A DNA stretch of 64,000 bases from assembly GCA_036405135.1 (NCBI GenBank), contig DASWYF010000037.1, forward strand, positions 1-64,000, given 5' to 3'. Below are positions 22,435 to 29,717 of this stretch, piece by piece. The notes under the pieces are model-generated. The model was not told where the DNA came from. It worked only from the letters and a program-made list of their open reading frames with translations, and ran no database searches. The position numbers were made by a program, and so were the translations under genes. Source of the stretch: Verrucomicrobiia bacterium. GTDB taxonomy: Bacteria; Verrucomicrobiota; Verrucomicrobiia; Limisphaerales; JAEYXS01. Each line of letters opens with the position of its first letter. Position 1 is the stretch's first letter.

Positions 22435-23439
22435 ATGATCGATTTGACGGAGATTACTCCAGCAGGGGTAGATCGTTTTGGCCTCCGGAAGCCCATGGCT
22501 CCGGCGCAGTATGATGCCCTATCGCGCAAGATCCTGGAGCTGAAGAAGAAGCTCAACGCCATCATCCTGGCGCATAACTACCAAGTGTCCGAGATTCAGG
22601 ACGTGGCGGATTATGTGGGTGACTCGCTTGGCCTCGCACAACAAGCCGCCAAGACGAGTGCGGATGTGATCGTTTTCTGCGGGGTGCATTTCATGGCGGA
22701 GACGGCGAAGATTCTCAATCCGAACAAGGTCGTCATCTTGCCGGATAAGGACGCGGGTTGCTCACTGGAAGAGAGTTGCCCGGGTGAAAAACTGAAGGCG
22801 TTCCAGGCGACGAATCCGAATTTTTACACCATCGCGTATATCAATTGCAGCGCGGAGGTGAAGGCGCTGAGCGATGTGATCGTGACGAGCGGTAACGCGA
22901 TGAAGATCGTGAACGCGGCACCGAAGGACAAGGACCTGCTCTTCGTGCCGGATGAGAATCTGGGCTCATGGGTGATGGAGAAGACGGGTCGCCCGATGAC
23001 TTTGTGGAAGGGCAATTGCTACGTGCACGTGGAGTGGACGCACGCAGCGATTTCGAAGATCCGGCAGACGCATCCGCACGCGCCGCTGGTGGCGCATCCG
23101 GAATGCACGAAGGCCGTGCGCATGCTGGCGGATGAGGTGTGCTCCACGGAGAAGATGGTGACGTATTGCCAGAAATCTCCGGCGAAGGAGATCATCATCG
23201 CCACGGAAGCAGGCATGCTGCATCGCCTGCAGAAGGAGTGCCCGGGCAAGACATTCATCCCGGCGCCCACGGAGAATTGCCGGTGCAACGAGTGTCACTT
23301 CATGAAGATGAACACGCTCGAGAAGCTGTATGATTGCATGCTGAACCTGAATCCACAGGTGGAGTTGCCGAAGGAGATCATCGAGCGGGCGCGGTTGCCG
23401 ATCGAGCGGATGTTGGAGATCTCGGCGCGGCCGGAGTGA
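22435..23439 (+). CDS. nadA: Quinolinate synthase NadA
   Basis: The enzyme condenses iminoaspartate with dihydroxyacetone phosphate to give quinolinate in NAD synthesis, using an oxygen-sensitive 4Fe-4S cluster. The 334 residues carry the family motifs LAHNYQ (45-50), CGVHFMAETAKIL (C82), GNCYVHVEW (C194) and NCRCNECHFMKMNTL (C282, C284, C287). C82, C194 and one of the last group are the expected cluster ligands. Length and motif order are normal. No other nad gene is adjacent, so it appears to be a single-gene unit. Confidence 0.96.
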   Translation: MIDLTEITPAGVDRFGLRKPMAPAQYDALSRKILELKKKLNAIILAHNYQVSEIQDVADYVGDSLGLAQQAAKTSADVIVFCGVHFMAETAKILNPNKVVILPDKDAGCSLEESCPGEKLKAFQATNPNFYTIAYINCSAEVKALSDVIVTSGNAMKIVNAAPKDKDLLFVPDENLGSWVMEKTGRPMTLWKGNCYVHVEWTHAAISKIRQTHPHAPLVAHPECTKAVRMLADEVCSTEKMVTYCQKSPAKEIIIATEAGMLHRLQKECPGKTFIPAPTENCRCNECHFMKMNTLEKLYDCMLNLNPQVELPKEIIERARLPIERMLEISARPE

Positions 23440-23611: not shown

Positions 23612-23650
23612 TCACTATCCACCATTGACCATCCACTACCTACTTTCCAG
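23612..23650 (+). repeat. Heptad-periodic array, copy Q, overlapping a stop codon
   Basis: Units CACTATC, CACCATT, GACCATC and CACTACC follow each other at 7-base spacing. The array includes the stop codon (23640-23642) of the minus-strand membrane protein gene. Confidence 0.55.
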
Positions 23651-24185
23651 CTCCCCATGGGATCATCACGCCGTAGGGGGCTAGCTTATCCGTCTGCTCT
23701 TTGAAGGCGGGTGGAGGCATGCTGGCACTTTTTAGAACTTCGCCGTTCTTCAATTCCAGCACGAGGGCGTGACGGCCTTCTTTCCGTGACCAATCGACGG
23801 CACCGGTCCAGCGGTGGATCTCGGTTTCCGGGATGGCGACGGTGCGGTTCGGGTAGTGATAGGTGACTTCCCAAGTCACGTCCTTGCCTTTGGCTAAGCG
23901 ACGGATCTCCACGAATTTGCTGCCGAGGGAGAAGTTATAGACCCAGGAGACGCAGATGAACCAGACGGCGAAGGTGATGATTGCGCCTTTGGATTTCTTC
24001 ATCAGGGTCACGGGTTTGTTGAAGCCGGAGCGGATCTCCTTATGAAAGGCAGTTTCCACGCACATGAGGACGAACAGGCCGATGGCGAGGAGGGTGAAAA
24101 AGACGGCCATGGCGATGAAATAGGCAAACTGGGCCCGGGCATCGCCAAAGCTAAGGACAAAATCGGAAACTTCGGTCACGGGCAT
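23640..24185 (-). CDS. Membrane protein of unknown function
   Basis: The ATG at 24185 gives 181 residues; the TTG 16 codons further upstream lies in repeat DNA. Two transmembrane segments are visible (about residues 20-45, IAMAVFFTLLAIGLFVLM; and 66-84, IITFAVWFICVSWVYNF). A soluble C-terminal domain of about 95 residues follows, with HRWTGAVDWSRKEGRHALVLEL. No family is recognised. Its stop codon lies inside a heptad array, so the C-terminal residues may have been shaped by repeat insertion. Confidence 0.6.
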   Translation of the reverse strand: MPVTEVSDFVLSFGDARAQFAYFIAMAVFFTLLAIGLFVLMCVETAFHKEIRSGFNKPVTLMKKSKGAIITFAVWFICVSWVYNFSLGSKFVEIRRLAKGKDVTWEVTYHYPNRTVAIPETEIHRWTGAVDWSRKEGRHALVLELKNGEVLKSASMPPPAFKEQTDKLAPYGVMIPWGAGK

Positions 24186-24233
24186 GAGATAGGGGTAACT
24201 CGCGGGGAGTTTCAAGTTTTCAGTGGAGGACAA

Positions 24234-24342
24234 AAGGTTTCTTGTTTCTGGTTTTGGGTTTCGGGTTGACGAGATTTTGGATGTTTAAGGGACGTAGAAA
24301 GCCGTGACTCGAAACTGGAAACGAGAAACACGAAACAGTTTC
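24234..24342. repeat. Pair of facing heptad-periodic arrays, copy K
   Basis: The left array (24234-24273) reads on the minus strand as units such as AACCCGA, AACCCAA and AACCAGA. The right array (24306-24342) reads on the plus strand as AACTGGA, AACGAGA and AACACGA. Because they face each other, the two arms can pair over most of their length. Confidence 0.7.
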
Positions 24343-24360
24343 GAGGACGAGCACGATTGG
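24342..24360 (+). repeat. GAGGACGA-type tract, copy 3
   Basis: CGAGGACGAGCACGATTGG directly abuts the right heptad array. Confidence 0.45.
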
Positions 24361-24433
24361 AGCGGTGAATAGTCCGAATGGGGGATGGTGGGGGATAAGG
24401 GTTTTGAATAGAGTTTGGGTGTGGTTGGGAACT

Positions 24434-24544
24434 CCGTTGGGGTTCAGAATCATGGTTGCCCGGCCCTGTAGGCCGGTTTAACTGAACCGAGGTTTGTCAA
24501 CGGATCGGCGGCTGGAGATTGTAGATCTCCAGCCGCCGTTTTTT
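24434..24544 (+). ncRNA. Candidate structured small RNA with intrinsic terminator
   Basis: Three nested helices can form: CCGTTG (24434-24439) with CAACGG (24498-24503); GGTTCAG (24441-24447) with CTGAACC (24482-24488); and CCGGCC (24460-24465) with GGCCGG (24471-24476). A 14-base-pair terminator stem follows (24506-24519 with 24525-24538), then TTTTTT with one leading G. The U-run fits transcription on the plus strand, yet no plus-strand protein gene lies between nadA (ends 23439) and 26964. The best reading is a free-standing RNA of roughly 110 bases. No promoter was recognised, and a bidirectional terminator for the symporter gene is the alternative. Confidence 0.5.
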
Positions 24545-24599: not shown

Positions 24600-26015
24600 C
24601 TATGTGCCTTGTGCTGGGGTTGCCTGGGGCGATGTGTTTTTCAGGCCAAGGAATTTGTGCTCGATCAGGCCGGCGAGAAAGTATCCTCCAAACGCAGCAA
24701 GCATAGAGATGAGGAATGGGTAAGGATATTCGTATTTTGCTGCGGCGAGGTAAACTAAAAGACCCGCTCCCAAAGACGTGAGTGCTGCGGCTGAACCGCC
24801 AAAGTTCGAAAAGAGAGCCATGACCATGATGACGAAAACACCGGTGCTGCCCATGGCGGAGGCTTCGTGGACAAGTTCGAAAACGGATTCCGCACCTAAG
24901 GCCAGCCACGCTGCGATCAGGCCGCTTACCACGACCATGATACGGGCGGAGAGAATCTTTCCGCGTTCTTCAATGCCTGGCACCAAGGGGACTATGAGAT
25001 TGTGCGAGACAAGAGCAGAGGCAGAAAGCAGCGTGGAATCTACCGTGGACAGAATGGCGGAGACCAAGGCGCCGCTGAAGATGACATACATGAAAGTGTT
25101 CAGATGCTCCTTCGCCAAGGTGGGCAGGACGTGCTCCGGGTTTTCGATGCCAGGCATCATCTTGAACGCAAGCAGACCGAGGATGGCGGGGATCAATCCA
25201 ACCAGGATGTAAATGCCACCGCCGATGAGAGCGGATTTGCGGGCGACTTCAGGGGAACGAGTCGCGATGACACGACCGATAAGTTCCTGGGCTACGACGG
25301 AGCCGCAGATGGGGACCATCCACTGCTCAAGCTGTTCCAAGAGACCTCCGTTACCGTGGAATGGATTAAGGCGCTCGGGTTCGATCTCGCGGATCGCGCC
25401 AGACAGGTCCGGGATCTGTGCGAGGACGATGATGAAGATGACGACAAGGCTGAAAATGATGATGATGCCCTGGACGAGATCAGTCATGACATCTGCCTTC
25501 AACCCGCCGGTGACGGTATAGACGATGGTGACACCAGTCGCGATGAGGATGGCGATATCCACACTGACGGATCCGTTGGAGATGTTGCTGATGACCTCAC
25601 CGAAGGCGCGCACTTGTGCCGCGGCCCAGATGATGGAGGTGGGCGCGATGAGGAGGACGGAGGCGCGCTCCACGGTGACGGAATAGCGCTGGCGGAACAG
25701 GTCGATGAGCGTGGTAAGCTGGCGTTTCCACAGAGGGACGGCAAAAACGAATCCCAGAAAAAGAATGCAAAGGCCATAACCGAAGGGGTCTGCTGCGCCG
25801 CCTGAGAAGCCTTGTTCATAAAACATGCCGGCCGAGCTGATGCACGTTTCCGCGCCGAACCAGGTGGCAAAAATGCTGAACGTGGCGAGGCCCAAGCCAA
25901 GGCTACGACCGGCGAGGAGATAGTCTTCTTCGCTGTCGATATTGCGCGAGACCATGAGGCCGATCGCTAGTTGGATGAGGACGTAAACCAGCACCCCTGT
26001 GAGTATCCAGTTCAT
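24600..26015 (-). CDS. Sodium:solute symporter family (SSS) transporter
   Basis: The 471-residue membrane protein has about 13 hydrophobic segments. Family signatures include DYLLAGRSLGLGLATFSIFATWFGAET near residues 35-60, the TGGLKADVMTDLVQ loop near 160-173 and the SAILSTVDSTLLSASAL segment near 325-341. SSS proteins take up sugars, amino acids, organic acids or urea with Na+; the substrate cannot be read from the sequence. ATG 26015 is preferred, with ATG 26027 and GTG 26030 just upstream. The 14-base-pair hairpin downstream has its U-run on the wrong strand to serve this gene. Confidence 0.9.
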   Translation of the reverse strand: MNWILTGVLVYVLIQLAIGLMVSRNIDSEEDYLLAGRSLGLGLATFSIFATWFGAETCISSAGMFYEQGFSGGAADPFGYGLCILFLGFVFAVPLWKRQLTTLIDLFRQRYSVTVERASVLLIAPTSIIWAAAQVRAFGEVISNISNGSVSVDIAILIATGVTIVYTVTGGLKADVMTDLVQGIIIIFSLVVIFIIVLAQIPDLSGAIREIEPERLNPFHGNGGLLEQLEQWMVPICGSVVAQELIGRVIATRSPEVARKSALIGGGIYILVGLIPAILGLLAFKMMPGIENPEHVLPTLAKEHLNTFMYVIFSGALVSAILSTVDSTLLSASALVSHNLIVPLVPGIEERGKILSARIMVVVSGLIAAWLALGAESVFELVHEASAMGSTGVFVIMVMALFSNFGGSAAALTSLGAGLLVYLAAAKYEYPYPFLISMLAAFGGYFLAGLIEHKFLGLKNTSPQATPAQGT

Positions 26016-26110
26016 GGCGCGTGACATCACGGCAAGTGGCCGGAGATGTCAATGTGGAGTTTGGATACAGGGGAAAGAATTTTTGTAATCGGTGGGTTTC
26101 CCGTTCACGC

Positions 26111-28838: not shown

Positions 28839-29717
28839 ATGAACATCCATCATCTTGAGCTGTTTTATTATGTGGCGAAGCATGGCGGCATCATGAACGC
28901 GGTGCGGCACATCCCGTATGGCATCCAGCAACCGGCGGTGAGCAGCCAGATACTTCAATTGGAGGCGGATCTGGGACAGTCACTTTTTCAACGCCGACCA
29001 TTCCAGCTCACTTCGGCAGGGGAGGAGCTTTACGGATTCATTAAACCTTTCTTTGAGAACATCGGGCCGGTGACGGAGAAGTTGCGGGGTGGGGCGACAC
29101 AGTTGGTGCGCATCGCGGCATCATCCATGGTCTTGCGCGATCATTTGCCAGCGGTGTTGGCGCGAGTGAGGAAACAGTTCCCGCGTTTACGGTTCACGCT
29201 GGTGGAGGCGACCTTGGTGCAGGTGGAGCAGGGTTTTGCGAAACAGGACTTTGATCTGGCGGTGACGGTCACTACGGGGAAGCTGCCATCAGGTTTGCAC
29301 GCGATGGAGTTGATCGAATTGCCGCTGGTGTTGCTGGTGCCGGATGATTGGAAGCTGAAGTCCGCAGAGGATTTGTGGAAGCAGGGTTACATCAGCGAGA
29401 CGCTGATCTGTCCGCCAGCTTCGGAGCCGTTGACCATCGCATTGCGGCAGGGATTGGCGAAACGGAAGGTGGATTGGCCGACGGGCATCGAAGTGACCTC
29501 GCTCGAACTGCTGCATACTTACGTGGCACATGGATTTGGTCTGGGCGTGTCGTTGAGGGTGCCGAAGGGCCAGCTTCCCAAGAGTGTGCGGATGCTGCCG
29601 ATGGAAGGATTTCCGGTCATCAATATCTCAACGGTTTGGCAGGGGACGGCGGGGCCAGTGACGCGGATCATGCTGGAGGAGATCAAGAAACAGGCGGCGA
29701 GTTTAGTCGGGAAGTGA
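28839..29717 (+). CDS. LysR-family transcriptional regulator
   Basis: The 292-residue protein begins with the winged helix-turn-helix of LysR regulators (HHLELFYYVAKHGG, QPAVSSQILQLEADLGQSLFQRRP, residues about 3-60). An effector-binding domain of two alpha/beta lobes follows (about 85-290). LysR regulators usually control a divergent neighbour; here that is the 59-residue membrane protein. No inducer is predicted. Confidence 0.9.
   Translation: MNIHHLELFYYVAKHGGIMNAVRHIPYGIQQPAVSSQILQLEADLGQSLFQRRPFQLTSAGEELYGFIKPFFENIGPVTEKLRGGATQLVRIAASSMVLRDHLPAVLARVRKQFPRLRFTLVEATLVQVEQGFAKQDFDLAVTVTTGKLPSGLHAMELIELPLVLLVPDDWKLKSAEDLWKQGYISETLICPPASEPLTIALRQGLAKRKVDWPTGIEVTSLELLHTYVAHGFGLGVSLRVPKGQLPKSVRMLPMEGFPVINISTVWQGTAGPVTRIMLEEIKKQAASLVGK

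Follow-up and report, generated by a model that had tools for sequence, protein, structure and literature searches.

A probable genus-restricted, free-standing small RNA gene with its own terminator in a Verrucomicrobiia genome

Hfq-independent trans-acting small RNAs (sRNAs) of bacteria are compact and intergenic, are ended by an intrinsic terminator of their own, and carry a conserved loop able to pair with start regions. 6S RNA (RF00013) is a free-standing RNA as well, with stacked stems arranged around an internal loop. The element described here occupies 111 bases of the plus strand (24434-24544) in a window of 64,000 nucleotides, the whole stretch of DNA that was analyzed, and it shares with each of these kinds the features just named. 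Regulatory RNAs of the Verrucomicrobia appear to be little described, as the papers found mention the Verrucomicrobia once or twice at most. Orphan sRNAs specific to a lineage are common in bacteria, and the element is therefore a useful annotation rather than a surprise: probably a previously unannotated sRNA gene at the level of a genus, ordinary in kind and putative in function.

Fold, terminator and strand

At -56.0 kcal/mol, the full element folds far more stably than its shuffles, which average -35.65 (z -5.86; none of 200 as good). Folded alone, the 71 nt core (24434-24504) reaches only z -1.59, with 11 of 200 shuffles as good, and its z ranges from -1.2 to -2.2 across the three species compared (that of the window and two of the same genus, G001 and G002); thus it is the terminator hairpin alone that is clearly non-random in a single sequence. 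The fold confirmed the three nested helices and the 14-bp terminator with a U-run reported by the first-pass annotation. The helices of the core are CCGTTG/CAACGG, GGTTCAG/CTGAACC and CCGGCC/GGCCGG, and the terminator stem (24506-24538) has 15 pairs by our count, 14 of them perfect, and is followed by TTTTTT. The same annotation described a GC-rich fold amid AT-richer DNA, which holds for the immediate flanks (43-48% GC) but not for the element, as its 56% GC equals the window average. The element and its surroundings comprise the following features:

24434..24504 (+), structured sRNA core: an internal loop of 12 nt enclosed by three nested helices, which recur in each of the three species
24434..24457 (+), invariant stretch of 24 nt that contains the loop AATCATGGTT as a candidate base-pairing site: 100% identity among the three species
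24506..24544 (+), intrinsic terminator, 14-15 bp stem and six Ts: compensatory changes at two pairs when the three species are compared
24369..24433 (+), conserved unstructured block, probable promoter/regulatory region or RNA 5' end: identity and an absent fold signal
23640..24233 (-), genus-restricted divergent neighbor without a Pfam match: of 97 genomes searched, present in the three of this genus and in no other
24600..26030 (-), convergent sodium:solute symporter (PF00474), adjoining the element in this genome only: located on different contigs in the sisters

The antisense strand of 24434-24544 folds equally well, and the fold alone does not discriminate between the strands. The element is assigned to the plus strand because of the T-run and the conservation: in all three species a T-run lies 3' of the terminator stem on this strand, in both sisters after a gap of about 4 nt, and the minus strand of the element is without one.

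Conservation and distribution

Positional orthologs of the element occur in both of the same-genus genomes compared (88% and 80% identity over 24374-24539). In line with the first-pass reading, structure is conserved in these relatives: all five variable stem pairs stay paired across the three species, three as G-U wobble pairs in helices 2 and 3 and two as compensatory changes, both in the terminator, in a comparison for which the helices were placed by hand and in which three sequences make for thin covariation. Positions 24434-24457 do not differ at all among the three species, against 72-79% (G002) and 59% (G001) identity at fourfold-degenerate sites of the neighboring genes. It is highly improbable that the locus is instead a small protein gene, read from a minus-strand frame beginning at 24453 (MILNPNGVPN...) or from a plus-strand micro-ORF. 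The minus frame does encode identical residues over its initial ten codons in the three species, but it stops at codon 13 in G001, third positions show no concentration of the differences, and the plus-strand frame ends differently in each species.

Conservation extends upstream of the fold. The block at 24369-24433 retains 91% (G002) and 82% (G001) identity, compared to 59-79% at the fourfold sites of the neighbors, and showed no sign of folding in any of the species, as expected of a promoter region. The block lies on the 5' side of the divergent gene at 23640-24233, the one neighbor of the element that is kept in all three genomes, and it might serve this gene as a promoter/operator and leader, with the terminator acting only as insulation from swapped neighbors and with no functional sRNA at the locus. 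The equally good antisense fold would suit this account, but the sequence between the block and the divergent gene (about 24200-24365, including the spacer at about 24240-24340) is unconserved, the strongest conservation falls in the plus-strand helices, and each of the three species has its T-run after the stem on the plus strand, the minus strand having none. We therefore judge that account to be rather unlikely and favor a plus-strand sRNA.

Two observations concern the same intergenic region and its divergent gene. An imperfect inverted repeat at 24237-24336 (GTTTCTGGTTTTGGGTTTCGGG ... CGAAACTGGAAACGAGAAACACGAAAC) is not conserved at this position in the relatives and is possibly a small repeat insertion; the Rfam match to mir-3910 that it gives at 24237-24329 was rejected, as its 26.5 bits fall far below the threshold of 95. 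At the start of the divergent gene (24183 of the window, minus strand, and 3570-3700 of L025) there is a one-base length difference in G001, and the true start codon is uncertain.

The element appears to be restricted to one genus, as searches at several scales gave no credible match elsewhere. A covariance-model search of 320 genomes of the order and 387 of the phylum, run with stricter filters, returned no further credible case; as the MAFFT alignment underlying the model is slightly misregistered in helices 2 and 3, the model leans on sequence. Four weak model matches in the order (E 0.03-0.09 per genome) were dismissed as chance-level values over 320 genomes, and the two of these that were inspected are without the conserved motifs. 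DNA searches of plasmids and phages found no match to the element, and no Rfam 15 family exceeded its gathering threshold in the window, where only sub-threshold chance matches occurred. The element is single-copy in its own genome, and a repeat or mobile element was rejected on this count and for lack of a phage or plasmid match.

Genomic neighborhood and probable transcriptional independence

Both flanking genes (23640-24233 and 24600-26030) lie on the minus strand, as had been noted at first pass. The companion statement, that no plus-strand gene lies within 1 kb upstream, falls just short of exact: nadA (+), the nearest such gene, ends at 23439, 995 bases before the element. It lies beyond the divergent gene both here and in G002, and the G001 contig ends within the divergent gene. 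The downstream neighbor has been exchanged, being the convergent symporter here and, in both sisters, a codirectional large gene on the plus strand about 120-300 bases past the element, which we take to be of a GDSL/haem type from its CxxCH motif and GDSL-like N-terminal part. The ortholog of this gene in the genome of the window resides on another contig and has similar sequence directly upstream of its start. This upstream sequence includes a motif common to the different genomic locations (TTTCGCGCATGACTxATxACC...; L041 1450-1500 and L005 1898-1950), which is probably the gene's own conserved promoter or leader.

The plus-strand gene downstream in both sisters raises the prospect that the element is a leader or attenuator acting in cis on a gene since exchanged in the genome of the window, and GGAACTCC/GGGGTTC can form a hairpin that is mutually exclusive with helix 2. 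However, the next gene in the window is convergent, the GDSL/haem-type gene has its shared upstream sequence also in the one genome that lacks the element at that place, and the GC-rich terminator stem of 14-15 bp leaves little room for an anti-terminator. We consider a leader of this kind quite improbable, and a riboswitch or leader was set aside on the grounds that the downstream gene is exchanged. As the neighbor is exchanged and the GDSL/haem-type gene keeps upstream sequence of its own, the element is best seen as an independent transcription unit and not the leader of either gene; as looked for in a trans-acting sRNA, it has its own terminator and no conserved downstream gene attached. 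The first-pass proposal of a separate, self-terminated RNA gene thus finds support: the two sisters keep structure and terminator through compensatory and wobble changes, and the downstream gene differs.

A role as terminator of the symporter was ruled out, since the symporter's strand is without a T-run and the sisters do not have the symporter next to the element. The region upstream of the symporter (26030-26110, minus strand; also L038 and L039) is itself conserved in all three species and contains TTGACAT...CCGGC...GTGATGTC just before the start, a possible promoter, or operator with TGACAT/ATGTCA half-sites.

Putative mode of action and comparison with known RNAs

We regard it as reasonably likely that the locus is a free-standing plus-strand sRNA gene with a promoter in or near 24369-24433, ended by the terminator at 24506-24544. 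Transcription would start within or near the conserved block and stop at the terminator, giving an RNA of roughly 110-125 nt that would act in trans. The upstream promoter that would be expected from the first-pass reading did not emerge, as the best sigma-70-like match upstream of 24434 reached 7-8 of 12 positions and none was recognizable.

In the fold of the element from the window, the bases of the internal loop AATCATGGTTGC stay unpaired, and in the minimum-energy folds of the relatives the loop is partly paired; its first ten bases are invariant and it contains an anti-AUG. The invariant loop AAUCAUGGUU, with its anti-AUG, is a candidate pairing site that would pair with mRNAs, probably without Hfq, and blocking of translation starts would be the most likely mode of action, favored because the loop holds the anti-AUG. 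A classic Hfq-dependent mechanism is unlikely, since a search that recovers Hfq from control genomes found none in the three genomes. A search with the 11-mer complementary to the invariant loop (AACCATGATTC) gave two additional sites in each of G000 and G002, none of them clearly at the start of a gene that the genomes share, and no target with a conserved site emerged from it or among the neighboring genes. Neither target suggested at first pass was upheld. Pairing of the loop with the nadA start region is at chance level (102 of 200 shuffles as good), and pairing with the symporter start is weak (4-10% of shuffles as good in the three species), at a site that is not conserved in G001 and for a gene that is not adjacent in the sisters. 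The best pairing among the 11 start regions tried was with a LysR-type gene at 28839 (0 of 200 shuffles as good), for which no ortholog was found in the sister genomes at E 1e-60.

The element is probably a genus-restricted, free-standing, trans-acting sRNA. That it represents a new genus-restricted sRNA family of the Verrucomicrobiota, silencing mRNAs through an invariant anti-start-codon loop in genomes where no Hfq was found, is a more tentative suggestion that we hold with considerable doubt. As a conserved candidate with a defined terminator, strand and likely pairing site, the element is directly testable.

Identity with 6S RNA was ruled out: the RF00013 covariance model has no match at the element, a genuine 6S RNA lies at another locus in each of the three genomes, and the element, with its length of about 110 nt and its loop of 12/5 nt, contrasts with a model of 187 positions. 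The element has no sequence or Rfam relation to any family. It is most plausibly in the manner of the Hfq-independent trans-acting sRNAs that it would work.
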